Shown here one piece after another: positions 16,239 to 51,743 of a DNA stretch of 64,000 nt. The stretch covers positions 25,546,524 to 25,610,523 of the forward strand of contig NC_134845.1 of NCBI RefSeq assembly GCF_965363235.1. The letters are read 5' to 3'. Every line of letters starts with the position of its first letter. Within the stretch, counting starts at the first letter, position 1. The notes under the pieces were generated by a model that did no database searches, was not told the DNA's origin, and saw only the letters and a list, made by a program, of their open reading frames with translations. This DNA comes from Mytilus galloprovincialis. Taxonomy: Eukaryota; Mollusca; Bivalvia; Mytilida; Mytilidae. The position numbers and the translations under genes are program-made.

Positions 16239-16418
16239 AGATTTGTGTGTGTACGTTGATGTTGCTTCAGATTTGTGTGTGTACGTTGATGTTGCTTCAG
16301 ATTTATGTGTGTACGTTGATGTTGCTTCAGATTTGTGTGTGTACGTTGATGTTGCTTCAGATTTATGTGTGTACGTTGATGTTGCTTCAGATTTGTGTGT
16401 GTACGTTGATGTTGCTTC
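16239..16418 (+). repeat. 30-bp tandem repeat, six copies
   Basis: Six contiguous, almost identical units beginning AGATTTGTGTGTGTACGTTG. Units 3 and 5 carry ATTTATG instead of ATTTGTG, so a two-unit periodicity is visible. Because 30 is a multiple of three, both strands stay open, but no exon signals support coding. Confidence 0.9.
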
Positions 16419-16878
16419 AATCCTTTGTCGTATTTCCGAGCATTAGACAAAGTCATACATGCATGGCTTAAAAAAGGATCAACTGCATTTCGGAAATATG
16501 GACATTCTTAATTCAAATAATTGTACGTAAAATTCAGCCGGAAAATAATTTTTTACGCTTAGAAACTTTTTTGTTGTTGTTGGTATGTCAATGCAAAACT
16601 TTACCAAAAAATGTAATATTTGCAATATTTTATTAGAATTGTCTGCAACAGCAACTTATGTGGAGAATAATAATATGAGTAAATTTTGATTTGTCAAATT
16701 TCTTTAAAATCTTTAAGGTATATCAATTAGGTTTTTTGATTCCCTTGATATTCAATTTCCAAGAAATTTCAGCATTTTTCAAATTTTGACTACGTGATTA
16801 AAACACATTGCTCAAACATTTGTTGTCAAATTAGTTGTGCATGTTAATAAACTACATACGTTCATTAATTCAAGTTAA

Positions 16879-18554: not shown

Positions 18555-20201
18555 ATGTCAGATGAGAACCCAAAGGCAACACCAACCAGAGGTGTATCAC
18601 AAATATCTGATGGTAAGTAGACTTACATGTGATACAAAAACGAATTGTAGTGTTGTTGTTTTTTTGTTTTGTTCAATACGTTTTAAGTAGAGTTGATGTT
18701 GAAAACTGAAAATATTCTGTTTTTATATTTTCTTCGATATTACAGAACAGTTTTTTTTTTACATTTCAATCTTTAAAAGAAATCTGATATACTACAAAAA
18801 CAAATTGACCTTTCCATTCACGTTCAAGTACCCATGACATTAATTCTTTCACTTTAAATATGGTTTAAATTACAAATGTGTTTAATACACTTGGTCAACG
18901 TAGCCATTTACGTTAATCGTTTTATTTCTAAAATGAACTTTTATGCCAACTTCCCCTATAGCATTGCACAACCGCCTTATCCCTTCCTTCAACTATAGCT
19001 TATCAAAATCAGCTTAATTTTGGTTAAAGTGTACCTTCACGTTGGTATTAAGCAAGTACGACTTATCACAATACACAAGTTTTTTTTAATGTACAAAAAT
19101 GATAATGTACTATCGAACTTTTATGTAAAACATGCCCTCTCTTAGTCCTCTGTCTTGTTGTAAATGTACACATCATTTACATACATATATGCTTGATGAG
19201 TGTAGAAATGAGATGAGGGATGTAATACATAATGAGACAACAACAACGTATTTATAAGTATATATATAAGTTTTAAATTTAAAAAGTTAACCAATCGATT
19301 AAGATCATAATTGTTAAGTCGTTTACCATTACCGTTCTCAATTGTGTTCTAATAACATTGGGAAAGGAGGCAAACTTGTATCTGGAGTAACTCTTAGCTT
19401 CTCATTTCTCATTTGGTTAATTTAGAGAGACAACAATTATATAAAAGATTGGAAGACGATACCATCATTTGAACTACATATTCAGCTTCTGGTGCACAGG
19501 CACTTGTCTCAGAATTTTTTTTCCTATATACCTTATTATAAGGTATATAGGGAACTTTTTTCTGAGACAAGTGCCTGTGTTCTGGTGATATGAAAATATG
19601 TCCAGTGGACGATCTTTCAGTTATATATATTGTAAAAAAGTGGGAGAATACATCTTGCATTTCGCTGATACGCTTCTCTCTGTTTCTAATTTGTCCTCCT
19701 CAGGTTTCCTTGTCCTACCTTCCCGACATAATATCTTAACCCTGAGCCACCAGTCTTTATAAAAAAGATGCCAAAGAATCAAGGAAGCAATAATTACACG
19801 TTTAGTAAAGCCAATCAACAATGAACAAAACCTTCACCGTATAGTAATCATTAAATAGCTGCTGGATACTAGAATGTGAAACAACTGAAAAAAAAACAAG
19901 AAAAAAACCCAAATGACTTTACCAAATGTTTAATGTAGGCTAACCTATATATATTAAACAAAATGTTTTTTACATCAATATTTAAACAAACAAACAACAA
20001 TCAGAAAAAAAACATAGCAAACAAATACATCGTCTTTATATGTCTATGATCTCTTAATCTGTTAATAGAGATCTTTTATGGTTGGAAGATTTTATGAATT
20101 TAAATCTTGCATAAGTAATTTATTTTTTGAAGATTCCGGTATTTTCAGTCTGCCGAATACACCTGGTACTATTATGCTTCACGTGTCTGTGATATTCAAA
20201 G
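18555..20201 (+). CDS. exons 1-2 of the fusion gene: N-terminal leader
   Basis: Exon 1 starts at ATG 18,555 (MSDENPKATPTRGVSQISD) and follows a good acceptor at 18,538, so an upstream exon probably exists; the frame before the ATG is open to the acceptor. Exon 2 (20,133-20,201) encodes a short beta-like stretch (TIMLHVSVIFK). Both end in phase 1. Exon 2 is the least secure of the series because it is small and has no recognisable domain. Confidence 0.55.
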
Positions 20202-23200
20202 GTATGTATATATATTTGTGTACGCAATCATATCTCTATATTAGTTGTAGCTATTTATGGTTGAAGTCATTATTCTGAAAATTTTTAATATATGAATAAT
20301 CATGTTTATTTTTTTAGTTTTCCGGAGATAATTTCTTGCACTAAGTAAGAGTGTCGATTAGTCAAAATATAAAAATACTCAGGAAACTTAAAGTAACCAC
20401 ACCTTACAAGTCAGTGCTATTATACATCTCTCACTTCGCATAGTCACTTATTGTTATGCTTAAATAAGTTAACATGAACACAACAAACCAATTTACTTCT
20501 GATAGTTAATAAATAAATTGGATGCCATAACTACCTCTTGATATATTATACATTTTATACTTTTGTTGCTTAAATACATCTTTAAACTAAACAACAAACA
20601 AAAATTATTTCGGAATGCAGCAATTAAGTTCAGTATGTTAGATATTGATTTACGTTCACCGTGTCAAAAACAGCTTGTGAAATGCTTTTTCTTGGATAAA
20701 TTGTGAAATGTGTTTGTCATTTCCAGGACTTACATATTCTTATGTAGTGATCATTTCGATATAAATGTCTCATACTTCTAATAACTATATGAATTTTATG
20801 GAGGATTGTGTGCTAACGATTTTTGTTTTGTTTTGAGAATTAAAATAAATTTCTGGTTTAATGGTTTTCAATACGAAATGCTCATCGTATAATCATGTTG
20901 ATGATTTACCTAAATTAATTATATCAAAGTAAACTTTTATTACCTTTAACGCAGGTGTATGTAGTAAAAAAATCCAACAAAATTTTGGTTATACAAAACT
21001 ACATATAAATCCAGACCTAGTTCTCGAGGAAATACAGGCCATTGCGGAGGGTATTTTCTCCGACAGCAAGTTAGCAGAGTTAAGCGATACACGAGAAAAA
21101 CACAGAAAAACAGACCGCCTCCTAAAACATATACTACGAAAGGGGGAAGGTGTTTGTAAGTGTTTCCTGAAGTGCTTGCAGAGTGAGAGTATCCAAGCAG
21201 CATTCATTCTTGAAGATCTGCGAGCTTTCAAAGGTAATTCTATCTCAAAAAGTTTAGTATTTTTGTGATTTTCATTTTTAATTAGTAATAATTACAAAAT
21301 GAATCTTTTTTTAATGTTTTACTAATATATCTATGTTGTATTGTTTTTTTATTGTTCTATGTTATTATCATCATTTTACAAAAAATAGATGTTTTCAGCC
21401 AAAGGGTATCACCGAAAAATCTCTGACTGATTTCACACTATGTAAAAATTGTCTTCTGTGAACTGTGCCTTCGCGTTCTCGGTGTACGCTAACGCTCAGG
21501 GTAATATAATCGAATATAAATGCCCAACCCATGGTTAAAGGAAAACAAATCTATGGCTGCCATGAATTATTTCTTAAATAAAATAAACAATGTTAGTACG
21601 TTAATAGTTTGTCAACATCGTAGTAAACATCTAAAATGGCTAGATCCATGAATTCATCGGGGATGCAAACAATATCAAAGGTACGTGTAATTTACTGGTT
21701 GCATCGATCGTATTTGGTTTACTCTGGTAATTTCATTAGTAGCAGGAGTCAACGCCCTGGTAGCAGAGGCGGATTTAGGGGGTAGGGGGGAAGGGGCCCG
21801 GGCCCCTCCTTTTTCAGAAAAATTTTGGTTGGTTATATAAGGAATCACTGAAGCGTGACGGAATCGGCCCCCCTTAGGCAGTCAGTGGGCCCCCTCTTAT
21901 GAAAATTTCTAGATCCGCCACTGGGTGGCGTGCCACAGTCTCCTTGAAGACTGTTATGCACGCGTTTTTATACTTCAGGCTCACCAAAGTCCATCTTCGC
22001 TAGCCAAGGTTTACGATCCACTTCCCTCCTCTCCACACTTTGCAGATAAAGCCAACATTTGTGATAGCTATGTTGCGCCATCTATCGGAAGATGAAAGTC
22101 AAGCCCATTCCGAATACATCATTCTTGACCAATGGTAGCACTTAAACTCTTAAATTTGGAGATAAAACACGGTAACGTCTAGATTCTGTACAAATGGTAA
22201 AGCATGAAACGAAAATATACGTTGACATTCATGCATTTGTGCAAGAAACATACATGAATGACCAAAGTCTCGATGGTCGGCAAATTACGTAAAACTGATT
22301 GGATGCTGATTTCATGTCATTAGGACACTGACGGTAATAAACCTTGTGATGTAAATGGCGTTGATTGCAAATGTTGACATTCTGTCAATTCGGAAATTAG
22401 ACAAACGGTACTTTACCGGATAGCTCGAACGGACGCCTAACGGATAACTTTTTTTTTCAATCCGTTCATGTCCGTTAGACGTCCGTTCTTATCCGTTGCA
22501 TGTCCGTTTAGCGTACGTTTTATTCGTCGACGTCTGTTCTGTCAGGTGGAAAATTTTGAGCATGTTCAAAACTTTGATCGGACGTCCAACGGATAAAATG
22601 TTCGTTAGGCGTCCGTTTTGTACGGTAATCGTCCATTTCGTTTCCGTTTTGTATCCGCTACGTGTCCGTTATACATCCGTTGGAGGTCTGGAAGATAAAT
22701 TCACTAACGGAATTCTACCGGACGTTTAACGGATAAAACGGACGTTGAACGGATGAGAAACGGACTTCTACCGGACGTATAACGGATAAAACGGATGATG
22801 AACGGATCTGAAACGGATAAATGCCAATTGAAAATTTTGCGTCAGAAATGCCAATTGTTGGTATGTCAGATTTTTTAAGGTTCGTGAATTATTATTATTT
22901 ATAATCGATCTTAGAGTATAGGCACGTCTTCACAATCAAGCAGTTCTTATTCAGGCCAGACACTGCCCTTTGGCGGAATTTTGAAAAACAAACCAAAACC
23001 AGCATGCAGTTACACAGAAACATTTTGAATATTTATGCGATTTACATGTATTATTATTGTCGCCTTTGATTTTTATATCTTGTTCATCCGTTTTATCCGG
23101 TACGCTTCCGTTATGTGTCCGTTTTATGCGGTATTCGCCCGTTGGATGTACGTTCGACATCCGTTCTGTCCGGTACGTGTCCGTTTCTCGTACGTTGCAT

Positions 23201-26200
23201 ATCCGGTGTGTGTCCGTTATGCATCCGTTACGCGTCCGTTTTTTTTGTCAGTACATCAACAGACTCCCAACGGATAACAATTTTGTCAACGGACAACTTT
23301 TATTTTCATCCGTTAGTCGTCCGTTCGTGCTATCCGGTAAGGTGTGACCGAGGCTTTACGCTTATCATGTATGAGCCCCGGTTAATATATTCTTCAAGAA
23401 AATAAGGGTGTACAATATGCCAATTTCCATCTTTTTTCTGGTCTTAAAACTTTAATCAGGTAATAAGATAGAAGATACTAAAACATGCCATAATCATCAA
23501 TAAATAATACTTTTTTTTAATTCATTCAGATAAATTTGTCCCGCCTTTAACTACACACAATATTGACATAAAAGACATCCATGAGCATTACGAAGATATT
23601 GTGAAAGAATTAGAGAACACTGATATAATAGACCCTCTGTTGGAATACTACGTCCTTGATTTGGATGAGCACGACACAGTTGTGTATACAGACAAACCAA
23701 ACAGAGAGAGGAATTCTGATTTGGTTAACATTCTTTGCAAGAAAGAATCCGCCGACTGGATTCCAGGATTTATTTTGGTACTGAAAGATAAAAAATACGT
23801 ATTGCTTTTATCTTTAATTGAGCACAAAGGAAAAAGAGCCCCACAAGGTAGGTTCATATTATAGGAGGCTAACTATGAGAACATATCATTTTCATACTGT
23901 CCAGGTTTTCAAATATTTATTCAAAGGAAATATAAAACTGTTGTACAATAAGTAGAAATCTCAACAAGTCACATTCCAACAAAAAGGGAACAGAGACTTG
24001 ATTTAGCATGGAGGTTTAAAAAACAGTACAGTGAGCACTTGAAATAAAATAGATACGTGACGAAGAAGATAAATATGCATCGTCTTTCTCACATTGAATT
24101 TCATACAACATGATCGTTAACTGTTATGGTATAAAAAATCATAAATATTAACTTTAAGAAGACTTAACATTTTAAGCATGAAATATGACAATAAAATGTC
24201 GTGAATAGTCAAAAGTGAACTGAAAGGTTATGTTCAGACACTTTGTCATTTTAAAGTCTTCACAGCTACTTTTGCATAGGTACTATTTCTGTACTAAAAA
24301 TGTGTAGTACTGGACATTTACTTTTAAAATTCAGTACTATTTTGTTACTTTAAAATTATTTGTAATATTGAGGTACCTTTATTTTAAAGTACTTAATTTG
24401 TACTTGAAATTTAGGTACTACAGATTTTTCGGTTACTAACGTTACATTTTCAGCATTTTGAAAGTTTTTCTATTTCAAATCTTTTAAAATTTTATTTTCA
24501 AACATGGAATATTGTATTATTTCTGTACCAAAATATTTAGTACAAATCAAGTACTGTAAAATACAAGTACCTAAATATTACAATAATTTTAAAGTAAAGA
24601 AATAGTACTAAATATTAAAAGTAAATTTCCAGTACTATATATTTTTAGTACAGAAATAGTACCTATGCAAAAGTAGCTGAGTAGGTAGATTATTGATCCA
24701 AAAAATTTAAGTATGCTGTATCAAAATTTTCCTTTGCAAATAACCGTATACAAATTGTTATCCATTGAGATTTCCAAGCGATCATCACTGTAAATTTAGA
24801 GGAGAAAGTAAAATTAAAAAAATACTGAACTTCGAGGAAAAGTCCCTTATCAAAATCAAAAGCTCAAATTCATTAAAAGAATTGATAACATTGAACTGTC
24901 ATATTCCTGGCTTGGTACATGCATTTTCTTGGGTAGAAAATGATGGATTGCACCTGGTTTTATAGTTAGCAAAACCTCTCACTTGTATGACAGTTGTACG
25001 ATTGATTCTTGAAAGGAGAAAAATAATGAAAAATCTCCTACAAAAAAAGATAAATTGGTGTACCAGACAATGAAGGAATACTTTACAGTAAGTTTTTTAG
25101 AGATTAAAAACAAGCAAACCGACTTTAAAAAATATTTTACTAGCTTGAATTATATCCTTATGCGTCTTAATGGCATCATTTCTTCTTTGATAATGCGTTG
25201 TGTATACCATAATTTTAATGTACTGATTTCAAAATTAGTCAGTTTTGACAGATGAACGAGTTGCCTTTCCTTTATCTAAGACTCATTTCAGCTAAAAATA
25301 ATTTTTTTTGATAATTTCATATCGGGCATCTGAATTAGAAATGCAAACTTTTCACTTGGCAACGAAAACAAAAACCAGAACGTATCTTAAACCAGCAAAT
25401 AAAATTTATCTAAAACAAGTACATATACTATACTTTAAATACAAATATTTTATATTAGTATTTCCAGATCGAGTCCTGTATGACACCACCTATAAAATGA
25501 GCATAAAATTCCAAGGTATAAATGCAAGTAAGATAGAGGTAAAACTTGCCAGACTCGCCGACATTGATAATTTGTGTCGCCAATTTGCCAAATTATCAGT
25601 TAGTAATATCAAACAAGGCTCGGTGCTATTATTGGTCCATCCGATATCTCCAGATATCTGGCGGAAGTCATCAGAGGAAGAGAAGCAGAAACTTTTAGAG
25701 GAATTTATATATCAGCTGATTTATCAATCAGATGTAAAAAACCTGATACAGAAAGAGATTGATGTTTCCATTGAAGTTAATGAAATCAAGAATGTATTTG
25801 GAGATCCCGCATGGAGAGGTTAGTGTTACTTAAGACTTGGACATAAAGATATGCCTTAGTGTCATTAAAATAAAATACAGACTAAAATGAAAATTGTCGT
25901 GTATAAGAATTTTGTTGACATTGATTGACAACGAAGTAAAGATGTACAGTTTGGAAATGTTTTCAAAGTCAAGTGTGAATTAAAAAAACCCCTAAAGCTT
26001 TAGTTTCTTGATTAATATACCCTTATTTCTGCAATCACAAATAAAACTACGTCACAAGATGATTATTTCGACTTGAAACAATACAAAAACAAGAGATATA
26101 GTTTAGATATGTCTAAATCATTACTCTCCATTACTCTATGACAGATAATGCAGATGAGTTTATTTTGTTTCAGTAAAGAAATCATCACAGCTTACAAAAG

Positions 26201-29200
26201 AACAACAAAAACTTGAAGATAACTGGACATATTTGGTTGAAGAAATGGAAGTGAAAAAGATAATCGAATATTTCATAGAGCGTGACGTAATGACTGTCAT
26301 GGAAAGACAAAAAATAATGGATTTACCTGGAAGACGAGAGCAAGCTAAAATATTTCTTACTATCCTTAAGCATAAGTTGGGGGAAATAACAATTGAAGAT
26401 TTGATTGATGGATTAGTGACCACTGGACAGACATATATCGGCGATAGATTGAAAAAGGAGATACTCTGTATAGGTACGATTTATATAAAATAAATGAATA
26501 TCTTATTATCCTATTATGATAATATGTATAAGTTGTTCTGTTTTCCCTTTAGACTTTTGCTATATCTGTCTTCGACGAAACAGGTTTGAAAGTTGCAGTT
26601 GAAGTGACCTTGACATCATTTTGTTTACTGCAGTTATCAGAACGTTAATCATTGCACGTTCACAAACCGTATATTAGTGGTAGTCAAGTTAATTTTTCAT
26701 GTAACGATTTTTTCTTTAAAGTAGTTGAATTAGACTAATTCACCTATTTGTTTTATCAACTCTTTTTTGATTTTCAATTTATCGAACAACAAATAAGGGC
26801 CTTATCAGTGTGGTTTTCCTTCTGTAAATATTATATTGTTTTGACGATTTTCTGTATTCTTAACTGATGGCCCCATCATACCATCGTATTTATATTTTAT
26901 CATGATGTTTATTATTTATTGATTTGCCTACTATTCTCTGTTCTGTTAATCATATGCAGACTATCATATTATGAAAATAATCGAGTGAAACACGATAATA
27001 TATTGCAAAAAGACATGTAGGAAATGATAAATCATAACTTCAAAGCAACTGATTGGATAGTTTGTGATGTTTAGGTCAATGAAACATCAACCAAACAACA
27101 AACGAAAAAAAACACAAAAAAACCTCCATCAAAATCTAGAATACTAGAATGCATGTACAATAAATATTATTCATAAATAAAGGCAACAGTAGTATACCGC
27201 TGTTCAAAACTCATAAATCCATGGACAAAAAACAAAATCGGGATAACAAACTAAAACCGAGGGAAACGCATTAAATATAAGAGGAGAACAACGACATAAC
27301 ACTAAAATGTAACACATATAGACAAAATCCCACGAGAATAACAAATATAACATATATATATAACATCAAAACCAAATACATGAATTTGGGATAGACAAGT
27401 ACCGTGACACGTCTTATCGCAATGTGAATTTACACTCAAAAATATGAGAATCTGGTAGTTGAAACATAAATATATTCTCAGAGTTCAGAGAATTTGCATT
27501 CCACTGATATATTTATGTTATACATTTAGAAGTTGAAACAATTTGTCTGCATGGAAACTGTTACAAGCAAAAAAGAATTGTAGCAATCAACCTTATGTCT
27601 AATATTAACAGATTACATATCAATGCATCAGTTTTAGAGAATATGTTTCTTTAGATTAGTTCATAAAAGCAGAACCAATAAAATGCCATGCTAAACATTA
27701 TTTATACCCTATTACAATATTTATTCTAATACTTTTAATCATTTACCTGGATCTACTGTCTTACTTGAGAAATTGGCATTTGTACATTATTTCATGAACA
27801 GAACCAATTCAGTTTCTTGTTGAAAACGAGGAAACTTTAATATAAATAGAAATTCGATGAGTACTAAATTAAATGTATTGTCTTTGAACAAACTTGACTA
27901 TTAAAAGTTATCACATTACATTTCATGATACAGATTGTTTGAGAGAAACATACAAAGATCCTCAAAACTACGAAATGATCCTGGATGAGATGGTTAGTTC
28001 GACAATGCTTCAAACAGTGGCAAAATTTGAAGACAAGATGATCCCTCATCACATCCTGAACATATTAACACCCGAATGTGGCAAATCAAGGAGAGATAGA
28101 GCGCATCTATTTATGCAGTATGTTTTGTTGAATGATGTAGTCCTTCGATCATTCGAAAATGTTTTAGCAACCACAAATCATGTTGTTTTCAAGGTCAAGA
28201 AAAAATGTGATGATTGCAAACCAAGATCATCGAAAGGTGAGAAATTAAAAAAAATGTCATATTTTTAACAAATTGTCAATTAAAATTGCCAGACAAAATT
28301 ATTTCAACTAAATTCAGAAGTGTATCAGAGATTCTTAAGACTATTTATAAGTACGCCTTACTAAACAGACGATTTGATAATGGAACCTTTCAGAAACATT
28401 TGACTATTCAATCGGTTTTTATTTATAAAACAATTATATCACATTTTAAGTACCAGTGAAAAATGTAAATTTCTTATGTTTTGCAGCAGTTGGTACAATT
28501 GTCTGGATATTGAATCGAATGAAGTAGTATAAGTTTCGAATGTTTAAACTTGGTATTATTTGATACGAAAATTAAGGAATGTGGACACGGTCTTTAATTT
28601 GATTGAACGAGCGGAAGTGATTGATAAAGTATTGGGTGTTTAATGTAATGATATGGATATCTAAAGACAGAAGCAACCCTGTCTTTGGTATAGAAATAAT
28701 TGGAACAGAGATCTGGATGTTGGATTTTGTAATTGAAAGGATAAGGGAGCAATTGATGATAAATTGTAGGATAAAAATGTGATGGATTGAAGTTTCAGGT
28801 CTAAGGTTATGATTAATGCAATTGGTGAAGGAGCAGTTGCTAGAAATTCCTAGGTTATTGAAAACTTGGTTGCAATTTCTGGTCTCAGATAACGATTGTT
28901 GCGGAGGTATCTGATGTGGGAACGATTGGTATAAATGTAACTGATAACTTCAAATGATCTCAGGTGTAATTGGTATTGCTTTATTTGGTGCAGAGAGAGG
29001 TTTGTGTAAGAATAGGAAGGACACATTTGATTGGGATTGATGTACGTCAAAGTTGGCATTGTTCGAATTATGATTTGTACATCAATGTGACGGTCATAGT
29101 TGTGATGTATTTCTTATGTAATTAAGTGATGTTGTTATTTGGGGTCTTGTGAATATATGTCGTGATGTGAATATTCGTTCCCGAGAGTGACAGTTGCTAG

Positions 29201-32200
29201 TGCCTCGGTATTTATATGATTAAAAGGATACAATATGGTGGCTGCAAAGATTTGGGATGTTAGAAAGTTAATGATATAAAAATAAGTATAGGAGTGATTC
29301 TCAAATCCAGTTTGGTGTGCAGATGAGACATAGCCTTGTATACCAAAACCCCAAAAGACCACCTTCAAGGAAATTTCTGTTAAACATTTTCATTTGAAAA
29401 AAACAGAATAACTTCATTACTATTTATTTTCAGTACATTAAAAGCAACTGATGTATACCTTAATAGAGCATGCTAAATACCATTTCAGAAATACCTGGGA
29501 TGTTTTTGTTTCAGTATGGCCAATATGACAGGATTAATAACTTTAATATGATTGTCAATCAGACAACTATCCACCAAAGACAAAATGACAAAGATATAAC
29601 CAACTAAAGGTTACCATGCGGCTTTCACTAATGAGGACAATACATTTCTAATAGTTAGCTATGAAATGCTTTCATATGACAAAGGCCCAACATGACAAAA
29701 TAATATAGAGTTTGATTAACAAAAAAACGTAGAGGGAATTAATATGCGTAAGGGCGCTAAACCCTCACTCCTAACATAGGGCAGTGGTGTAACAGCGAAT
29801 TATAAGAAGCTTTGAAAAGGGGTTACCTCTTAGATTAAAACAAAGCCTAACATACAACAAACAAAAAGATTGCCGACAAAAAAAACACGATCTAAGAGTA
29901 CTTGGTTATTGAAAGCCAGTAACAAATAACAAATAAATCTGAGGAAAATATATGTACATGTGAAATGCCAAATACTAATATCTGCTGAATGTAAGATCTT
30001 TATTGTTCATTTCTCGTATTTTCTTTTTCGATAACCCTGCTTTCCTTTAGTAAACATATGTTTAGCATACATTTCGGTTGATTCAAATTGTTATATTTTT
30101 TAAAAGCTTCAAAATAATATGAAATGAAATATACAGATAAAGACATGAGAGAAGGTTTTTTTGTATATGTTTTTTTTTTATTGCAGATGCATCGTATTTT
30201 GAAACCAGTCTGGTTGAGGAAAAAGACAGAGTTTTTTGTTCATTCACAGTTAGAATGGAAACTGATAGTAAGATATATGTTATATAAAATTAAGAATGGA
30301 AATTGGGAATGTGTAAAAGAGACAACAACCCGACCAAAGAGCAAACAACAGTCGAAGGCCACCAATGGGTCTTCCATGCAGCGAGAAACTCCAGCACTCG
30401 TAGGCATGCTTCAGCTTGCCCCTAAACAAAAATATATACTAGTTCAGTGATAATGGACGTGATACTAAACTCCGAAATATACCAAGAAACTAAAATTAAA
30501 AGTCTTAAGCCCCAGTCCCACTAGACCACGATCGCACCACGCTCACCGCGATCTAAATTAAATTCAGATCGTGGTGAGGTCGCGGCATTAGCGGCATGAA
30601 ACTGTAAATTTTAGTTGCTTTCACGATGCTACTTCGTCCTCATTACGCTTCTACAATGATCCCGCTACGATTATAACACGTTCTCACCGCGCTTATTCTG
30701 CGATCTTACTACGCTTATCAAGATCTTTCTACGCTCATCACGTTCTTACTACGACCATACCACGAGTTATCCGATTGCAACACGATCTTTCCACGCTTCT
30801 ACTGCGATTATAGCACGTTCTTACCACGATTACACTACGTTCAAACCGCGATCTTACTACGCTCTCAGCAATAACATCAACATCGTGTTCCATATCAATA
30901 CAGAATCATTCCTTCAGTTCTATTTCTAATTAATACGTAGATTTCTCGGAAAAAAAAATACAATCAAGCCACCAAAATCTACTAGAACAGGTGGGCGTGG
31001 TGTTAGGGTTGATGTAGAGGCAGATGGAGCTCTGATAGTAACGAATCTTGATCAAGTAGAGATGTCGGACCGACCAATCCGGCCTAAATGACAACCTATT
31101 GCTGTTCCATAAAGCTGAAATGACGATATTTCAGTGAACGATAGCAGATATGAAATAGATGTGTCAATAGATATAGGAAGATGTGGTATGAGTGCCAATG
31201 AGACAACTCTCAATCCAAGTAACAATTTTTAAAAGTAACAATAATGATAGGCCAAGATACGGCCTTCAACACGGAGCCTTGGCTTACACCGAACAGCAAG
31301 ATATAAAAGGCCCCAAAAATTACTAGTGTAAACCATTCAAACGGGAAAACCAACGGTCTAATCTATATGAAAACAATAAGAGTGGTTGAGCCGTTAGAGA
31401 ACATGGACAAGAAGTCCCAATTACATACAGACAAACAAAACCTGGAGAGAATTAATATATTTTATGGGAAAATGACAATGAGAATAATGGTCGTAGTATG
31501 AACGTAGTCAGGTCGTTAGAAGAGCGTGATGAGGACGGCAAGGGCGTGCTAGAATCGTACTATGGTCGTGAACAGCGTGGTATATTCGCAGGTGAAGCGT
31601 AGTTTGGTCGCTGTGAGAACGTGATGATCGTAGTGAGGTCGTAATAACGTCGCAATGAGATCGTTGCATAGTTTCTCCGAATAGAATCACGCTTTCGCTA
31701 CGCTCTCACTACGATGGTACAGCGACCTTTGCGATCTTACTACGATCGTAGTGCGCGCTCACTACGCTTCTACTACGACCTGATTTGGCCACGACCGCAC
31801 CACGATTGTTTTGAACATGTTCAAAGTTGGCCACGATCATCACGAAGACCTCACCACGACCGTGATACGACCTTACTGCGATCTACACGATCGTACTACG
31901 ATCATCAAAATTTGCATTTTTTTCACAGATCGTAGTGCGATCGTGGCCTAGTGGGACTGGGGTATTACAAGACTAACAAAGGCCAATATAGTTCATTTAT
32001 TTAGTTTTTGTCATTTTGTTAAAATTCCTTTAAGTGGTAGTTTGGATATTACCATGTTTGCACAATTACTTTGAAATTGAGAATGGAATTAGATTATGTT
32101 TCAAAGGGACAAAATCCAAACAAAGGACAGAAAACAGCCGAAGGCCACAAATGGGTCTTCAACACATATATTTCTTTTATATAAAGATAAAACCCTTCGA

Positions 32201-35200
32201 AAAATATGGAATAAAAGATAATAAAAAATAATGATATTCATTTATCAAAAATGAATCAGTCTTGAACTGTTAAGAGTTTTCCTCTGTGAACAGTACCTAA
32301 AAGTATATACGTTGAAAATAAAATATAATTACAAAAATACCGCACTCCATGGAAATTCAAAACGTCTCAAGTATCATATGAAAAAAATTAAAAGCTCAAA
32401 TACATCAAACGAAACAGATGTCATATTCCTACTTGGTACAGATATAACCTTATATAAAAAATGTTGGATTAAACCTGATTGTATAGCTAGCGTAACCTCT
32501 CACTTGTATGATGGTCATATGAAATTCCATTTATATATATTGACAACATTGTGTGAACAGAATAAACAGACATGACAGATACATATGTCACAAATTGGGC
32601 TACAGCAGTCACATTGTGTAATAATCTTAATCACTTTAAAAACAAATATATTACCAAAAAATGAACTAAACAGTCAAGGTTAATAATTTACAAAGACAAA
32701 TAAAAGAACACTATAACACGTTATTAAGATGATTAACAACGCCAGTACCAAAAAATTATACTTTAATCAATACCATTATGAATGATTTGTGAAGTTTGCA
32801 CGGAATTTTTATCAATAATAAAGGCATACATTTAAAATAATTGATACATTGTAGCAGAATTAGTATTTTTTTATAGACTAGTTTTTAATGAGATATTATT
32901 TATAAAATTAAGTGACGTTACATAACTTCCAGCATATGTATATCTGTATATAATTAAAAGTAGGCAAACATTGAAATTAGAGATTTTCGCTCTCTTTAAA
33001 GTATACACCAATTACAGGGCTATAGCAAATATGACATACTCATAAGTTATATATTGATAGGCTTAACCCTCTTGTCATAGGCGGATCGAAAAATTTACTG
33101 TAATTATCGGTTAATAGAGAAACTCGATATCAATTATTCAAATAGTACATATTTAAAACTTTCTAACGATTATTTACGTAACTTAGAAACGTATAAAATA
33201 TAACCACAAACGAACGAAAATATTTGTTTGTGAATTGTTGAGTTTTTTTTTTATAAAACCTTTATTGTCATCAAACCACGGGACTCTGTCTTCCTTCGTT
33301 GAACCCCAAAATGTCTTTTTACCTTTTCCACCAATCTATTCTTTTCCTTAAAAAAATGTATAATTTAAACAACCTTTGTACGTTTTATTCTGAATATTTG
33401 AAGCATAATGTTGTTCGAACATTAAAATATAAAACGTTCATACTTAACTATGCATATAAAGGATCATTTAGAATTATTTCGTCATTAGAAGGAAACAATT
33501 TGGGCCTGACGAGTCTATCCCTTTCCGACTAATATTGACTTTTGCTTTTGGTGTTCAGTTTAGGTACCTGGTTATGTTAGTGCTTTTCATTCACAAATAT
33601 AATTACCACGGTCATATCTTTTATGTGACTTTCATAAGCCTGTAGCCCACTGCTGTCTGTCATAATTGTTTTCCTTTTTTCATTGTTTTGCATAAATTAT
33701 GCTGTTTCACAATTTGTTATGTCGGGTGATTTTATATCTTACTATAGAGTATGCTGCAGGCAGTACGATGACCTGTAGCTGTTTACGTCCTCGTCCTTTG
33801 GGGTCTAATTTATATGTATCTTGTTGATAATCTAACCACTTCTCCTTATTGGTATAGCTAGTAAATCTTTTGTGAGTCTACCCCAGTTTGATACGTAATA
33901 GTTATATACTTGTAAAAAAACAAGCCAGGCCAACATTCATGTGATTTACCTTAATTGGATCTTTTATTAAGACACTGTATATAAACCAAGGCAACAGTTG
34001 TTTACCAATGTTCAAACATGATAAATTGATTAAGAAGACAAAGCAAAGTAATAAAAAAAAGAGAATCAAATTAACCGGTTACTTCGACTGGGTAATATAT
34101 CCTGCATTAAGGTATGTAATCAGTAAATGTGATTATGCAGATAAATATTTCAACTTTTTATTTTAGAATCACTAAGAATTATTTCTTTAAAAAGAAAGAA
34201 GGAAGTTATTGAGAAAAAATATGTGAAAACAGACAGACCATTATATAGTCGACTTCCAAGTGAACCATACATGCGGGAGCTGAAAGGTAACTTGTTTTAT
34301 ACATTCCGTCAAAGTTATACGTTAAATATAAAAAAGAAGATGCGGTATGATTGCCAATGAGACAACTCTCCACAAGAAATCAAACTGACACAGACATTAG
34401 CAATTATAGGTCACCGTACGGCCTTCAACAATGAGTAAACCCATACCGCATAGTCAGCTATAAAAGGCCCGAAATGAAAATGTAAGACAATTCAAACGAG
34501 AAAACTAACGGCCTTATTTCATGGTTAGCCACTGAATTACAGGCTCCTGACCTGGAACAGGCACATACATACATAATGTGGCGGGGTTAAACATGTTAGA
34601 GGGATCCCAACCCTCACCTAACATGGGACAGTGGTATAACAGTACATCATAAGAACGAACTATACAAATTAGTTGAAAAAGGCTGAACTCATCATATGAA
34701 TAAAATATTCAGTTTTTAGTTATTGATAGTTTTTTTTATTAAGTATATTTGATATTGTCATGTTTACATTATACCTTAATAAAACAGTTAATTAAAGAAA
34801 ATCATCTTTTATTGAGTGTAATAAAAACAATCAACTTGAAGTAATTTAGGTGAAATGAGGCAGATGATTTTTATTTAGCTACCAATACAAAAACATGATT
34901 CACATTTTGATTCATCCTTTTAGTCAAACAGGAAAAACGGATTTTGATGTATACATATAAGTCTGAAAATTACACACAACAGTGTTAGAGGATAAGATTT
35001 TTCTGATGATAGATATTTCATGTTTCGTGCCCTCTGTTCAGACTTTCTTCCGGCAATATAAATTTTCGAAAAGCATGAATTTCAAATCTTGTTAAAATGG
35101 GATTATTCAGGAATAAAGTATCATTTTCCTTTCTTTGATATTCAGTTGATGGCTAACTAACTACACACATTATGTATTATAATTTGTTCGAAATTTGACA

Positions 35201-37104
35201 ATCCTACTATGGCTTATCTTTTCTGATAGAATAAAAAGTATAAGTAGTGAATTTGCAACGTTAACTCTGGAGTATCAAAGTGCCAGTGAGATAATTCTCA
35301 TTCCTTGCATGAATAAAATATTGATATCAAATTGATGTTACCCTATTAGTCTGTTAAATTTGCACTTTTCAAAAAATTGTGCATAAATCATCTTTGTTTA
35401 AAAAATAGAATACTTGACATGAGTGAAGTTTTATCCTGTCCAGAACTATATATATAAAAATTTCACATAATTTTTCATTACATATAAGAAAATAATCATC
35501 TCTGTAAAATCAGCCAATCAAATTTTCACCCTTTTTTTTTCCTGTGAACTAGCTTAAGTAAGCATGTAACTTCAAGTTTCCAAAATATTCTGTAGAACAC
35601 CAAATAAAACATATTATGATGATTTGAGGCACCAAAGATACATGTCTATGACACAGATATTGTTTTACTGCAGTAAATTTCCTACAACTGTCAAATGAGT
35701 CTTTTGTAGACAAAACGCGCGTTAAATACAAAAAATGATCCTGGTATCTATGATGAGTTTATTCAAATTCAAGGGAATATTTTTTCAACCTTTTTCGTAT
35801 GCAACCGGATGTGACACACTTGGTTTGGTGGTTTTACACCTATAATATAAAAAATACTCCATGTCGCGATGGAACATACTTTGGTTATACTTGTATGTTT
35901 TGTTAGTTTTGGTTGATATATAGCTCTTCATCTTTTTAATATGCTATGAATTTCAAATATTTTGGCCTCCAACATCACTGAAGAGACATTGATTGTCGAA
36001 ATAATCATCTGGTGCAGTTCTTTCTATTAAAGTTTACAATTTTATACTTTTTAGACCCAACACCTATTATTGCTGCAATAGATTTTGGAACTACATATTC
36101 TGGGTTTGCCTTCTCTCAAAAGAAGAAACACGCCAAGATAATAACAAAACAATGGCACAATTCTAGTGGTAGTGCCTTGCAGTCGTTTAAGACACCAACA
36201 AGTATACTTTTACTACCTGACGGCAATTTCCACTCATTTGGATATGAAGCAGAAGAAAAATACGATGTGTTAAGCAATGGAGGTGATCATAGAAGTTGGT
36301 ATTTCTGCAGACATTTTAAAATGGAATTGCACTCCTCAGAGGTATGTAGCTATGCAGTATTGTTGACTATAGTTTTAATAAATATCACAAGTTTTTATCG
36401 AATTTTGTAATTTTGTTATTTACCATCATGGATATATTTTTCTAAATTTGGAGTAGAAATAACCCCAGGATTTAAAAAAAAAAATATCTGGTTGAGAATG
36501 ATAGGTTTTCAAAATTGGTAAAAATGTACCAAAAGTCAATTTGTTACAATCTTTATGCGTTTCTAGTATAGGAACATGTTCGGAAATTGATTATTCTAAT
36601 GTGGTTAGATACTTAAAGTACCCATTTTTCAAAAACTGTCTATTAAGTGATGATCCGGGCTTAACTATTTGTAAATCTTAAACTTACTTATATATTGAAC
36701 AGCTGTTAAATCCAAAAAGGATGAGAAATAATATATATATAAAAATATTGGCTCTACGTCTTTTTTTCAAATTGCAAATAATGGGCCAAAATTACCAAAC
36801 CAATATATATATTTATATAAAATTTAAATTAAGATCAATTTTGTTACATCTTGTGATAAATTTTATTTGGCAATCGCCAATGGCAGTCAGCAGGGTTAAA
36901 GAACATCAGTTGTTCGACCTGTTAGTCAAATGCGTTTTGATTAAATATACTTTTTCATTTTTTTGGTCTTTTGGAAAATGTTGTTTGTGCTGTATTTAGA
37001 CCATTCTACAGCGAAATTTGTTTTACATGCACACGTATAAAAATTGCGGTTTTTATCCAACGCAATCATAGGTTTGAACATAGTTTTCAATTTAGACTCG
37101 TATA

Positions 37105-37145
<41 letters not shown>

Positions 37146-40100
37146 TATATTTTACTAATCATTCTGCCACTATGCAAAAAGTAAAATCACAAAAATACTG
37201 AACTCAGAGGAAAATCAATTTGAAAAGTCCATAATCACATGGCAAAATCAAAAAACAAAAAACAAAACGCATCAAAAACGAATGGACAAGAACTGTCATA
37301 TTCCTGACTTGGTACAGGCATTTTCAAATGTAGAAAATTTTGAACGTATACATAGTTATGATTAATTATTATTATCAACAAATGGAGGGTCTTCAAAAAT
37401 AAATATATACAGAGTGTTCTTGTTGGCCCACACTGGTTTTGTTTTTATATTTTTATCTTTGCAGTCTCACAGTTTCGAAGCTCGAATAATTGTGCTTTAG
37501 ACAAACTTTGTTAATGAAAATTCAATAGATTGACAGTTTCGGTTTTAGTAGAATAAATACTTTATATTAAAATTCGTTTTGTCAATCAGTCTTTGGGAAA
37601 TTTCTCGTTTGTGGTATCAAGTTCATTATATTTTTAATATTTACAATAGGTAAAACAGTCTGTCTTCTCTTATTCAAGTTATTGTACTTCCATGATATTA
37701 ACAAAACCAATGAATTATTGTAGATTTTAAAACGAGATACGATGATAGAAGACGTACTTGGCAAGAAAAAGACCGCTTTTGACATATTTTCCATGTCAAT
37801 CAAATATCTGAAACAAGAAGCAGAAAAGTTAATGCTTGAAAAAGGACAAAAAGTTGTTAAAGAAAACATATCCTGGATTATCACTGTACCTGCTATCTGG
37901 ACCGATGCTGCGAAGCAGTTCATGAGACAGGCTGCTGAAGAGGTAGATGTACTAATTAGAAAAAGTTTCATTTATCACGACTATTTGTTATACATTGTGA
38001 ATTTAAATTTCTCTGTTATCATAATCCTAATTTCTTACCAAACCAATTCAGAAAAATGAACTTGGCATTCTCTGTAAATCTTTAAAGAAAAAGATTGTAC
38101 CCAATTGACTTCCAGTTGTATTCCCTATTGATTCTAAAAAGAATACTGTAATAAACTATATTATCGTATATATACATTATATTTAAAAAATAGAATTTGA
38201 CTTTGCATTATAAGAACAAGTGACGGGATTAAAACGATAGTAGAGGGGCATTATGTTTTTCTGGTATATGCGTCCGTTCGTCCATTCGTTCGTTCTTCTG
38301 TCCCACTTCAGGTTATAGTTTTTGGTCAAAGTAGTTTTTGATGAAGTTGAAGTCTAATCAACTTGAAACTTAGTACACATGTTCTCTTTGATATGATCTG
38401 CCCAATTTAAATGCCAAGTTAGAGTGTTGAGTCCCAATAACATTACAAACATAAGCTTTCGATTACGAAGAATGTTTTTTCAAAATCTTACATATTGAGA
38501 TTTGTTGCCATTTATAAGTTTCATAAATGCCAGATTGATCAAATTATATTTATTTATACTGATTTCTGTAATTTATAAAATTCTTAAATGTCACTTTTAT
38601 ATAGGTCTAATAGGAGATGCATACCTGATTTATCAGAAAAAACATATATCCTTGTATGCATTACTGATCTTACAAAAATTAAAGTTACATCTGACCAACT
38701 CAAGATTATTTAATGACTACTGAGGGGACGCTTTTTCCTCCTCGGTTTTAGTTAGTAACCCGGATTTGTTTCCTCTCAACCGATTTATAACTTTTGAACA
38801 GTGGTATACTACTGCTGCCTTTATTTAACTTGTCGACGCAAGCGGTCCAGCTCCTTTCTATTTACACAAAAAGTAACTTAAGTTTTATCTGAGATTTAAG
38901 ATTTTAGATTTAAGTTTTAAATATTGGTAAGCTACATTTTGTACTGTTGGCTTCATTTGCCTACATTTGCCCATGTCAGTAAGCTACACTTGTGTTGCAT
39001 ATTGCATACTGTAAGTCTGATGCGTTGTCTCTGGTATATCAACTGTAACTAGGTTAGTCTTCAGTTGTATAAATAGATGGAATGAAAACAACACTTTGTA
39101 AGTTTTAAACTGACGAATCGCTTTTCTGGATCTAGTTTTATATGAAAAGATCAAAGTATAATATTTCGAAGCAAAGAATCTATAAGAACCGAAACAATTG
39201 AAGATCTATCTATGACCAAAACAGAAGTAAACTACTAGCCAAATTCATCTTATCAACTTGCCTGAGGAAATCGTTTATTTGGAATATTTATTTGCCAGGA
39301 AAAAAGAACTGCGGCAATCTTATGACTTCGGATAGGAGCTAGAAACTAGTGTGTCAACGTGATTAATGTCTCTGACTTGCAACAAAAGAATGAAGTCTTG
39401 ATAGTTTATAGGGCAGAAACGGTTAATTTCAGATCAAAAGACTTGAACATGGACTTTTTGGTCAATAAAATTACATCAGTTTTGGCAGGAACTGCATACC
39501 TTTTTGAAACATGCATTCTATTTTTTATAGGCTTCGATTCCGTCTGATAGATTGACATTAGCGTTAGAACCAGAAGTAGCTAGTATCTACATAGGAGCAC
39601 TTAATGTTGAGAAGAGTCGGGATGCCTGTAGTTCTGATGTTACACTGGTGAAAAGTGCTCCTGGTGCAAGATTTATGGTTGTTGATATTGGAGGTATCGT
39701 TACACTGATATTTAATGATCCTGTTATTTCTATTGCTACCATAATGTATAAAAACTCATAATAAATATCAGGCTTAAAGTTGTGTAGGACAGTACTACTA
39801 TAAGGCTTTGTTCAGTCCAAAATGAATTAAGGGACCAGAATATTTTTTTCCAACACTTCGCCTGCAATGAAGCTACTAGACGTAACTTCCTTCTGTAGGG
39901 AGGAATATCTGTTTTGACAGTATCTTCCTTTATATTGTAATTTTCCAAACAAAAACGAATACAAATTATTAAAAAAAAAAAAAAAACTACTCATGATGTG
40001 GAACAATACATATTACCATAAGTAAATATAAACTTATACTCTCTAAACAATAATACACTGAAACCCGTATCATGTCTTTTATTGGGATTACGGGTATATG

Positions 40101-41576
40101 CCATCCAATCATAACAAGTATTAGTTTTAACACAAACACGTATATAGCAAACATACATTTGACCGTTACTACAGCTTGTGAACAATAACAATAAGCACAA
40201 TTGAATTTTGATACTGAAGTTGGTACTGATTTACAAAAATATATAGCAGTGATGCGGATAGATATTATCATAATACTAAATAGGTCTAATTGGGGATATC
40301 TGATCCTAGATAGCGCTTATTGTTGTGTCAGATTCCCGTATTCCAATAACGCTTAAAATTACAATTGTCCCGCCCGACTTCATTTCCTGTTTCATTCTTA
40401 ATAATTTGACTTTCACATGTCACGAATACAAAAACACTCGCATCAGCCCCCATCACGGTTAGACCCAAATGAGACCCATACTGAAGCACTCGCGGTAATC
40501 CTAAATAATAAAGGTTTTTTATTAAATTTTAAGGTGGTACTGTGGATATAACAGTAATGGAGACAGCTACAGAACAGCGGTTTAAGCAGATAAGTTTAGC
40601 ATCCGGGGGACCCTGTGGTGGCAAGTATGTCAATGACAATATCCTCAAGTACCTTGCTTCACTTGTAGGGGAAGATGTCATGGAAACATATCGTGTAAAG
40701 AACATGAACGATTACCACGTGTTATCCAATGAAATAGAATTTAAAAAAAGAAGTTGGAAAAGAGGAAGTAAGCTTCAATTGGACTTGCCCGTCTCATTGG
40801 TGGATCATTTCGAAGATACAGCCGATTTAACTTTCTCAGATCATCTGAAAACTGCATCTCAAAAGAAAGTTAACTTGAGAGGAAAACATAAATTGAGGAT
40901 TCCAGAGGACATTGCTGAGCAGTTTACACTATCAGTAGTTTCTGATATCATTTCATATGTACGCGACACTCTTGGAAATGTAAAAGATATTTCGTATATG
41001 GTAATAGTTGGAGGCTTTGCCGATAATAGTTTGTTGAAACAAGAGTTTAAAAGTGCATTTCCAAAGAACAATATAATCATTCCAGACGAAGCTGGTCTTG
41101 CTGTTTTGAAAGGAGCGGTTTTATTCGGGCGAGATCCTTCATGTGTTATTACGAGGAAATGCGATAGAACATACGGAACATTAGTGTATAGAACATTTTT
41201 GAAAGACGATTTACGCGAAAAAAGGGTGAAAGAGAAAGACGGTGACTATTGCAAAGACGCTTTCAATAAACTTGTTGGAATTGGAGAAAGCATTTCAGTT
41301 AACGAAAAAAGATCAACAGAAATGCAGCCAATACGTGACGGCATGTCTAAGATGTCGATAAAGCTATACGGATCAACCGAACCTAATCCCCGATATGTTA
41401 CAGACAGGTCATGTACCTATTTAGGTAAAATAGTGGTGGACATCCCACATCAATGGAGGAACCGCGATGAAAATGTTATTGTGTCTATGACTTTTGGTCA
41501 AACAGAAGTCGTTGTTGAAGGAAAGTCAGAGCATGGTGAACATGTTGTTACTACAAAACTTGATTTCCTTGTTTGA
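18555..41576 (+). CDS. CARD/TRADD-N-like/HSPA12 fusion protein, 13 exons, 1196 aa
   Basis: Exons: 18555-18612, 20133-20201, 20955-21233, 23530-23847, 25468-25818, 26174-26473, 27934-28236, 30187-30267, 34167-34286, 36055-36341, 37724-37942, 39531-39693, 40534-41576. All have AG acceptors and GT donors, phases match, and the sum (3591 nt with stop) stays in one open frame. Predicted layout: residues 43-135 and 136-241 CARD-like, 242-358 alpha/beta module resembling TRADD-N, 359-458 and 459-559 CARD-like, 560-626 linker, 627-1196 HSPA12-type ATPase. CARDs assemble signalling complexes; HSPA12 proteins are ATP-binding, so the product could be an ATP-gated death-fold adaptor in the cytosol. Domain family calls are by eye; the fused transcript is inferred from frame and phase. 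Alternative: two adjacent genes, splitting between 30 and 36 kb. The exon before 18,539 may add a 5' UTR or more N-terminus. Confidence 0.75.
19495..19579. mobile_element. hAT-like fold-back MITE with perfect 8-bp target duplication
   Basis: An 85-bp palindrome with ends CACAGGCACTTGTCTCAGAA, inverted at the right, and a centre TATACCTTATTATAAGGTATA. It is flanked by TTCTGGTG at 19,487-19,494 and 19,580-19,587. Same termini as the copy at 46,758-46,869. It lies in the first intron of the CARD-HSPA12 gene. Confidence 0.9.
20955..21233 (+). CDS. exon 3 of the fusion gene: CARD-like module 1
   Basis: A phase 1-1 exon of 279 nt. The helical pattern LVLEEIQAIAEG, then DRLLKHILRKGEGVCKCFLK and AAFILEDL matches the helix spacing of CARDs, in which a Leu-Leu pair and a Lys-Gly turn precede the Cys-Phe helix. 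Weakest match of the four modules; a different death-fold subfamily is possible. Confidence 0.6.
21764..21923. mobile_element. hAT-like MITE, second copy of the 4224 family
   Basis: 160 bp with ends CAGAGGCGGATTTAG and CTAGATCCGCCACTG and a GGGCCCGGGCCCC core. The target duplication is no longer clear. Intronic. Confidence 0.7.
22411..23342. mobile_element. TIR element with body of iterated end motifs (ACGGAC/ACGGAT words)
   Basis: The left end TTTACCGGATAGCTCGAACG and right end CGTTCGTGCTATCCGGTAA are inverted repeats extending about 35 bp. Between them, 22,420-22,830 and 23,080-23,330 are dense arrays of 10-12 bp words (TCCGTT, CGTCCGTT, ACGGATAAAACGGACG) on both strands, with a unique middle (22,830-23,080). 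No transposase. Apparent reading frames here are repeat by-products. Intronic. Confidence 0.65.
23530..23847 (+). CDS. exon 4 of the fusion gene: CARD-like module 2
   Basis: A 318-nt phase 1-1 exon. Residues YEDIVKELENTDIIDPLLEY, then LVNILCKKESADWIPGFILV and YVLLLSLIEH follow the CARD helix order (H1 with an LL pair, H4 with L..L..K, H5 with F...L). Acidic in H1-H2 and basic in H4, as in CARDs that polymerise through charged faces. Confidence 0.7.
24263..24679. mobile_element. 417-bp near-complete palindrome (MITE)
   Basis: The left end CAGCTACTTTTGCATAGGTA and the right end, its reverse complement, are joined by matching inner segments, so almost the whole element is self-complementary. 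Rich in GTAC-centred words (AGTACT, GGTACT). Flanks AGTCTTCA and AGTAGGTA are only a weak 8-bp match. Intronic. Confidence 0.75.
24780..24990 (+). repeat. dispersed repeat family G, copy 1
   Basis: Shares AAAATACTGAACTTCGAGGA, CTGTCATATTCCTGGCTTGG and CCTCTCACTTGTATGA with copies at 32,310-32,530, 37,185-37,360 and (short) 61,190-61,270. All four lie in the plus orientation. Non-coding, intronic. Confidence 0.55.
25468..25818 (+). CDS. exon 5 of the fusion gene: alpha/beta module (TRADD-N-like)
   Basis: A 351-nt phase 1-1 exon. Predicted strand MSIKFQGI, helix IEVKLARLADIDNLCRQFAK, strand GSVLLLVHPI, long helix EEKQKLLEEFIYQLIYQSDV, strand DVSIEVNEI. This beta-alpha-beta-alpha-beta pattern with GSV at the central strand recalls the N-terminal TRADD domain and its invertebrate relatives, which occur beside death-fold domains. 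It is not a CARD. The family call is tentative. Confidence 0.5.
26174..26473 (+). CDS. exon 6 of the fusion gene: CARD module 3
   Basis: The clearest CARD: YLVEEMEVKKIIEYFIERDV, then ERQKIMDLPGRREQAKIFLT, then DLIDGLVTTGQTYIGDRL. It has the typical kinked first helix, the ERQKIM helix, the Arg-rich turn, the ILKHK helix and the TGQ..I...L last helix. 300 nt, phase 1-1. Confidence 0.8.
27176..27440 (+). repeat. dispersed repeat family F
   Basis: Starts AAAGGCAACAGTAGTATACC and contains TCAAAACTCATAAATCCATG and CCGAGGGAAACGCATTAAA. Short related ends are at 33,968-34,030 (GGCAACAGTTGTTTACCA) and, inverted, 38,770-38,830. Intronic. Confidence 0.5.
27934..28236 (+). CDS. exon 7 of the fusion gene: CARD-like module 4
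   Basis: A 303-nt phase 1-1 exon: YEMILDEMVSSTMLQTVAKF, EDKMIPHHILNIL, then SRRDRAHLFMQYVLLNDVVL and a final SFENVLATTNH. CARD-like helix spacing with an RRDRA..F segment in place of the usual R..Q...L; could also be called a general death-fold domain. Basic C-terminus (VKKKCDDCK). Confidence 0.65.
28570..29260 (+). repeat. G-rich, C-poor degenerate region
   Basis: About 700 bp of the intron after exon 7 has many G but very few C on the plus strand, with recurring GATTG, ATTGGT and GGTAT words. It looks like an old degenerate array rather than coding DNA; frames are short on both strands. Confidence 0.4.
29510..29840 (-). repeat. dispersed repeat family B, diverged minus copy
   Basis: GATTGTCAATCAGACAACTA followed by GGTTACCATGCGGC and CTAACATAGGGCAGTGGTGT, the same order as the minus copy at 34,325-34,690. 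Confidence 0.5.
30187..34286 (+). CDS. exons 8-9 of the fusion gene: linker to the ATPase
   Basis: Exon 8 (30,187-30,267) encodes YFETSLVEEKDRVFCSFTV, beta-like. Exon 9 (34,167-34,286) encodes a basic stretch (LRIISLKRKKEVIEKKYVK) and ends in LPSEPYMRELK. Both are phase 1 at both ends, so together they carry the reading frame from the last CARD-like module to the HSPA12 part. The 3.9-kb intron between them contains a TIR element at 30,510-31,962. These two small exons are what holds the fusion together and should be tested first. Confidence 0.6.
30280..30490 (+). repeat. dispersed repeat family H, copy 1
   Basis: AAGAATGGAAATTGGGAATG, then AGTCGAAGGCCACCAATGGG and CTTGCCCCTAAACAAAAATA. Pieces recur at 32,080-32,170, 43,475-43,670 (minus), 44,580-44,900 (interrupted) and 52,850-52,940 (minus). 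It directly follows exon 8 of the fusion gene and extends an unrelated open frame. Confidence 0.6.
30510..31962. mobile_element. 1.45-kb TIR element, CCACGATC-word body, copy 1
   Basis: The ends CCCCAGTCCCACTAGACCAC and GTGGCCTAGTGGGACTGGGG are inverted. The left arm (30,510-30,870) and right arm (31,490-31,962) are packed with degenerate words such as CCACGATC, ACTACGATC and ACGTTCT in opposite orientations. The core (30,870-31,480) is unique DNA plus a family B piece (31,175-31,400). No transposase. A second, end-truncated copy lies at 58,954-60,256. Intronic in the fusion gene. Confidence 0.75.
32310..32530 (+). repeat. dispersed repeat family G, copy 2
   Basis: AAATTAAAAGCTCAAATACA, GATGTCATATTCCTACTTGG and CCTCTCACTTGTATGATGG match the copy at 24,780-24,990 in order and spacing. 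Confidence 0.5.
34325..34690 (-). repeat. dispersed repeat family B, minus copy
   Basis: GAAGATGCGGTATGATTGCC, AATGAGACAACTCTCCAC, ACCGTACGGCCTTCAACAAT, AACCCATACCGCATAGTCAG: the best preserved minus-strand copy, and intronic, just after exon 9 of the fusion gene. Confidence 0.65.
36055..41576 (+). CDS. HSPA12-like: exons 10-13 of the fusion gene: HSPA12-type ATPase
   Basis: Intron phases 0, 0 and 1 match the paralogue at 1646-5776. Motifs in order: phosphate-1 IAAIDFGTTYSG (start of exon 10), SWIITVPAIW (exon 11), LALEPEVAS (exon 12), phosphate-2 VVDIGGGTVDIT across the exon 12/13 join, GPCGGKYVND, adenosine motif VIVGGFADNSLL, then AGLAVLKGAVLFG, typical of HSPA12. The ATP-contacting residues of HSP70 (Asp and Thr of DFGTT, Glu of EPE, Asp and Gly of DIGGGT) are all present, so the ATPase looks competent. 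It ends at TGA 41,574-41,576 without an HSP70 substrate-binding domain, as in the family. Confidence 0.92.
36935..37095 (+). repeat. dispersed repeat family I, copy 1
   Basis: GGTCTTTTGGAAAATGTTGT through TCCAACGCAATCATAGG, about 85 percent alike by eye to the copy at 63,731-63,890. Intronic. Confidence 0.65.
37105..37142. repeat. (TA)n microsatellite
   Basis: AT dinucleotide run immediately after the family I copy. Confidence 0.8.
37185..37360 (+). repeat. dispersed repeat family G, copy 3
   Basis: AAATACTGAACTCAGAGGAA, ACTGTCATATTCCTGACTTG, GTACAGGCATTTTC; same orientation as the other copies. Confidence 0.55.
38230..38440 (+). repeat. dispersed repeat family C, copy 3 (3'-truncated)
   Basis: AGTAGAGGGGCATTATG, CGTCCGTTCGTCCATTCG, AACTTAGTACACATGTTCTC. 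It stops soon after ATGCCAAGTTAGAG. Intronic. Confidence 0.6.
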
Positions 41577-51640: not shown

Positions 51641-51743
51641 GTTATAATTGATATATTGAATAAAAATCCTACTGACACTTCTTTTTGAAATATTTAATTC
51701 ATGTTTACAATTAAAAAATACATTTACTTTTTACTCCATTAAA
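51641..51743 (+). repeat. direct repeat, right copy
   Basis: 103 bp matching 49,634-49,742, with a second AATAAA near 51,660. The flanking DNA differs outside the match. Confidence 0.9.

Follow-up and report, generated by a model that had tools for sequence, protein, structure and literature searches.

In Apaf-1 and the NLR proteins, CARDs are combined with a STAND NTPase, and RIG-I-like receptors couple tandem CARDs to an ATP-dependent part. With regard to bivalves, Kaur et al. (2021; PMC8195603) describe around 50 Crassostrea virginica proteins composed of an ectodomain, a DED, a TRADD-N module and a variable C-terminal part. The latter contains at least one element out of death-like domains, STAND NTPases, HEPN, AIG-GTPases, repeats, B-box and HSP70, and TRADD-N is proposed there to act as a switch which keeps its flanking domains inactive.

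The gene analyzed here, predicted on the plus strand at 18,555–41,576 of the window (the whole 64-kb stretch of DNA under analysis, taken to come from a bivalve and probably from a mussel), resembles Apaf-1/NLR proteins in that CARDs lie N-terminal to a nucleotide-binding ATPase, and differs from them in that this ATPase matches HSP70 rather than STAND families. It shares with the RIG-I-like receptors the presence of tandem CARDs and an ATP-dependent part, but no helicase match was found in its protein with Pfam. As for the atypical HSP70 proteins HSPA12A and HSPA12B, the whole ATPase body is colinear (with an HSPA12A sequence not drawn from a database record), whereas more than 600 residues, mostly of death-fold type, stand in front of it; these are missing in a neighboring HSPA12 gene. 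If exon 5 is a TRADD-N module, the protein would also be similar to the bivalve NCOA6-clade TRADD-N proteins of Crassostrea, which, according to PMC8195603, have death-like domains and possibly a C-terminal HSP70. In contrast, the main C. virginica set described there carries a Cys-rich ectodomain, a transmembrane helix and a DED, while in the present gene CARDs flank the putative module. None of the 49 plus-strand ORFs of at least 45 aa in the interval 5.8–20.9 kb, a search which misses smaller exons, matched Pfam at E 1 as an upstream receptor part.

A preliminary description of this DNA held that the layout was not known as a described system. That was too strong, because the TRADD-N proteins in the available text of PMC8195603 may carry death-like, STAND and HSP70 domains. 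The general kind has already been published in oysters and the present arrangement may be new; its domain order was not found in that text. Similarly, no CARD-HSPA12 fusion was found in a literature search covering titles and the beginning of abstracts, with subscription papers and supplements outside its scope. HSP70 is mentioned solely within bacterial conflict systems in the part of PMC7159879 that was accessible, and HSPA12 is named in PMC3723955 in the reference list only. No relatives of exons 5, 6 and 13 or of the HSPA12 alignment were found in viral contigs, nor of exon 10 in genome contigs of the viral and prokaryotic collections, nor of exon 13 in phages; since these collections are viral or prokaryotic, the results have no bearing on distribution among animals.

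Gene model and domain content

Splice reconstruction yielded 13 exons in a single open frame (Table 1), with 1197 codons of which the sole stop is the terminal one, i.e., 1196 residues, and with GT-AG borders in all 12 introns. The thirteen exons, consensus splice sites and 1196 codons proposed previously were thus recovered, and the phase-compatible junctions claimed for the gene (28,236 to 30,187, 30,267 to 34,167 and 34,286 to 36,055) were reproduced exactly, with phases fitting throughout. Exons 2–9 are each of phase 1-1, which is the pattern of exchangeable domain cassettes, and are followed by 1-0 in exon 10, 0-0 in exon 11 and 0-1 in exon 12, so that the change in phase pattern coincides with the HSPA12 domain boundary. 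Weak splice sites comprised the acceptors of exon 11 (0.5) and exon 13 (2.7) as well as the exon 8 donor (3.4). Codon scores were coding-like in most exons, including exon 1, whose value was reached in 1.1% of the 3000 open intronic segments compared. An exception was exon 2, without coding signal by this score (20% of open intronic segments scored equally high), and whose start at 20,133 was the sole in-phase open AG found.

Table 1. Exons of the predicted CARD-HSPA12 gene and the stand-alone HSPA12 gene used for comparison (window coordinates; splice-site scores where given).
Feature	Position	Strand	Remarks
Exon 1	18555..18612	+	Proposed start codon and 19 residues; donor 9.5
Exon 2, doubtful	20133..20201	+	Phase 1-1; acceptor 4.8, donor 8.9
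Exon 3, CARD 1	20955..21233	+	Pfam CARD, below cut-off alone
Exon 4, CARD 2	23530..23847	+	Pfam CARD and CARD_2, below cut-offs
Exon 5, TRADD-N-like, doubtful	25468..25818	+	Gly-Ser motif judged by eye
Exon 6, CARD 3	26174..26473	+	Pfam CARD, above cut-off
Exon 7, CARD-like 4	27934..28236	+	Weak fold match to Apaf-1 CARD
Exon 8, linker	30187..30267	+	Acceptor 11.2, donor 3.4
Exon 9, linker	34167..34286	+	ATG at 34271; acceptor 4.7, donor 7.7
Exon 10, HSPA12 start	36055..36341	+	AIDFGTTYSG motif in translation
Exon 11, HSPA12	37724..37942	+	Pfam HSP70, below cut-off alone
Exon 12, HSPA12	39531..39693	+	LEPE and VVDIGG motifs in spliced translation; LEPE and VVDIGGGT aligned to DnaK
Exon 13, remaining HSPA12 and stop codon	40534..41576	+	Colinear with HSPA12A sequence (non-database)
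Stand-alone HSPA12, comparison gene outside the fusion	5776..1646	-	Exons 5776-5450, 4075-3848, 1805-1646

Profile searches of the predicted protein, which the preliminary description had recommended, returned both CARD and HSP70 above their cut-offs. Pfam CARD (PF00619) matched the 1196-residue protein in three stretches (9.2e-14; 51.7 bits against a cut-off of 23.9). When exons were searched individually, exon 6 exceeded the cut-off (1.4e-7, 31.9 bits), exon 3 remained slightly under it (1e-4, 22.7 bits) and exon 4 stayed below for both CARD (1e-3, 19.4 bits) and CARD_2 (1.9e-3). Exon 7 alone gave no Pfam CARD match. Its single-sequence AlphaFold2 model was helical (pLDDT 72.8), and the top Foldseek match in the PDB was the Apaf-1 CARD (probability 0.87, E 0.8, TM 0.54/0.58), within a set of 28 matches which included the BinCARD and Bcl10 CARDs and in which none reached E ≤0.001. 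Consequently, the four CARD-like domains reported earlier correspond to three identified by sequence profile and a fourth represented by a weak fold match. No further copies of the CARD exons or of the TRADD-N-like exon were detected in the 64-kb window (tblastn, E 1).

Exon 5 had been designated a TRADD-N-like module. What was retained of this assignment is a Gly-Ser pair at residues 50–51, located by eye at the meeting point of two strands; the TRADD-N signature, as given in PMC8195603, combines a tiny residue with Ser in the β2-β3 turn. No TRADD family match was obtained in Pfam or NCBIfam, and single-sequence hhalign produced no alignment with human TRADD. The structural model was poor (pLDDT 54.9) and placed Gly-Ser within a predicted strand (43–58) rather than in a turn; the first helix, which would separate the first strands in the RRM-like fold expected for TRADD-N, was missing. 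The fold search gave 505 weak matches, and among the best 50 of these none was found at E ≤0.001 and many were PII-, Lrp- or IsdG-like, folds that are ferredoxin-like. A TRADD-N-like nature of exon 5 is therefore possible and doubtful.

Regarding the ATPase part, Pfam HSP70 (PF00012) matched the 1196-residue protein with 2.8e-11 and 42.8 bits (cut-off 20.6). Exon 11 on its own reached 8e-4 (18.2 bits, sub-cut-off), exons 10, 12 and 13 each gave no Pfam HSP70 match when searched alone, and exon 13 alone reached the cut-off of TsaD, another actin-fold ATPase family, with 24.8 bits. Exons 10–13 were colinear over their full length with the HSPA12A sequence not drawn from a database record, with 190 identities in 619 columns and 56 gap positions. 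A partial alignment with DnaK covered the LEPE and VVDIGGGT stretch, and the translation contained IDFGTTYSG and VGGF, which we take to be nucleotide-site motifs. With the HSP70 profile matched and the whole body colinear with that HSPA12A sequence, the proposal of an HSPA12 ATPase stood. No Pfam match to a STAND NTPase (NB-ARC/NACHT) appeared in the 1196-residue protein at E 1.

The neighboring stand-alone HSPA12 gene has its own ATG and shows DFGTTY from residue 19. It shares 46% identity with the fusion across the first three HSPA12 exons, and its three introns occupy places equivalent to fusion introns 10–12 with identical phases (0, 0, 1). Its last exon was not found within the window, and the gene is therefore probably cut by the left window end.

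One gene or two

The CARD and HSPA12 parts are separated by a gap of 7.8 kb between exons 7 and 10, which is bridged by the two small exons 8 and 9. A search for splice sites with an open phase-1 frame gave two non-overlapping candidates in the gap, compared, with thresholds unchanged, to 2.5 (plus strand) and 1.3 (minus strand) per equal length in control DNA comprising 49,966 bases of the plus and 61,526 bases of the minus strand. Markov resampling of the gap produced 0.84 pairs on average and 2.05 at the 95th percentile, with three pairs observed. An initial control with seven real stretches (1 to 8 candidates) was set aside because three plus-strand stretches mutually overlapped and one included exons 2–4. 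Judged on splicing signals and reading frame, candidates such as exons 8 and 9 occur about as often as chance would give, so that the phase argument alone is insufficient.

Codon usage was more discriminating. The score was trained on exons 3–7 and 10–13, the first exon of the neighboring HSPA12 and the Mab-21 ORF described below, against introns. Among 3000 length-matched open intronic segments, 0.9% reached the value of exon 8 (0.222) and 1.3% that of exon 9. A score of at least 0.13 was reached by both gap candidates, by one of 16 plus-strand candidates outside the gap, which is a tandem repeat, and by none of 10 on the minus strand; the candidate-exon thresholds, here as in the resampling, were set from exons 8 and 9 themselves, which biases the comparison in their favor. 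Neither exon had a second copy in the window, in which just short, chance-like matches were found.

We consider it likely that exons 7 and 10 are joined in a single predicted transcript, and the fusion is the likeliest reading of the predicted gene model, because exon 10 has no ATG ahead of the ATPase motif, the exon 7 donor is strong (11.1, the top score of the gene), the phases fit and exons 8 and 9 are coding-like. An unlikely alternative is that two adjacent genes are present, i.e., a CARD gene whose last exon is 7 or 8, followed by an ordinary HSPA12 gene with exon 9 as its first coding exon, starting with MRELK at 34,271. Such a start would use the in-frame ATG of exon 9, five codons ahead of the donor, but the bases around it are unfavorable (T at -3, C at +4), and the 34 codons upstream of it are open, lie behind a splice acceptor and are coding-like, with a score matched by 2.6% of 5000 open intronic segments. 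Read-through of exon 7 into the intron meets a stop after ten codons, and 28 AATAAA/ATTAAA hexamers lie within 28,237–36,054; nevertheless, such hexamers are commonly expected in A+T-rich DNA, as is found in this window (G+C 0.29–0.42 in 2-kb steps), and the strong exon 7 donor would go unused. The neighboring HSPA12, being stand-alone with its motif close to its own start, sets a precedent for separate genes. It is highly improbable that the locus is decaying or misassembled and merely resembles one gene: the repeats in introns 8 and 9, and the weakness of exon 2 and several splice sites, would be compatible with this, but 1196 codons run without a stop, most exons other than exon 2 score as coding-like and the window contains no N.

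Possible role of the HSPA12 part

Beyond the open, phase-consistent model, the CARD matches and the full-length HSPA12 body, which are established by computation, we tentatively propose an adaptor, encoded by one gene and arranged as CARD-CARD-(TRADD-N-like)-CARD-CARD-linker-HSPA12, in which HSPA12 could act as a nucleotide-driven switch. The CARDs would bring in CARD partners or nucleate their assembly, the TRADD-N-like module between them might keep the flanking parts closed, and the HSPA12 ATPase would open and close the protein according to its nucleotide state, in the place held by the STAND NTPase in Apaf-1/NLR proteins. Such a gene probably arose when cassettes of phase 1, each with one domain in one exon, were joined to an HSPA12 gene.

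The HSPA12 part of a single gene could instead be a built-in chaperone that keeps its own CARDs unassembled or dismantles CARD oligomers, along the lines of the gating or disassembly suggested in the preliminary description; we judge this rather improbable. A precedent in trans for disassembly is provided by the action of Hsp70 on the Apaf-1 apoptosome, where, according to a review (PMC11989206), it can block Apaf-1 oligomerization or CARD exposure. A chaperone role would also be in line with the stress response of these genes, given that 143 HSPA12A and 119 HSPA12B unique transcripts of Mytilus edulis differ under heat or low salinity (PMC8774603). However, the protein follows the HSP70 profile as far as position 377 of 599, so that no substrate-binding domain of the canonical type was found. 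We favor an ATPase switch acting on a CARD adaptor over a disassembly mechanism.

A further-reaching form of the switch, in which an HSP70-fold ATPase replaces the STAND NTPase and an HSPA12 state set by stress or ligand opens a four-CARD scaffold for a cell-death or immune signal, seems unlikely to us. If it were true, part of the bivalve HSPA12 expansion would consist of immune receptors and not chaperones. Both the expansion and the stress response of HSPA12 in mussels are reported in PMC8774603. Mussels have many HSPA12 genes, and if HSPA12 and CARDs are physically linked, this expansion would be connected with cell-death signaling and a direct question would arise, namely, whether nucleotide binding by HSPA12 controls CARD assembly.

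Surrounding features

Several repeats were recorded in the window. A 1.3 kb repeat is present in inverted copies at 30636–31959 and 60257–58954 (86% identical), one of them within intron 8, and gave no near match in the plasmid collection. Intron 4 contains an inverted repeat at 24258–24684 with arms of 103 nt that are 91% complementary, perhaps a small transposon. Tandem arrays were located at 9340–10718 (37-base unit), 16238–16419 (30-base unit) and 61922–62119 (21-base unit). Two long minus-strand ORFs at 50053–51641, which by eye resembled a reverse transcriptase, gave no corresponding match in Pfam. Finally, a single-exon ORF at 47433–49607 of the plus strand, which lies 5.9 kb beyond the 3' end of the predicted fusion gene, encodes 718 aa from its first ATG and matches Mab-21 (5e-9) and Mab-21_C (1e-18), together with weak TPR matches, which makes it a candidate cGAS-like receptor.
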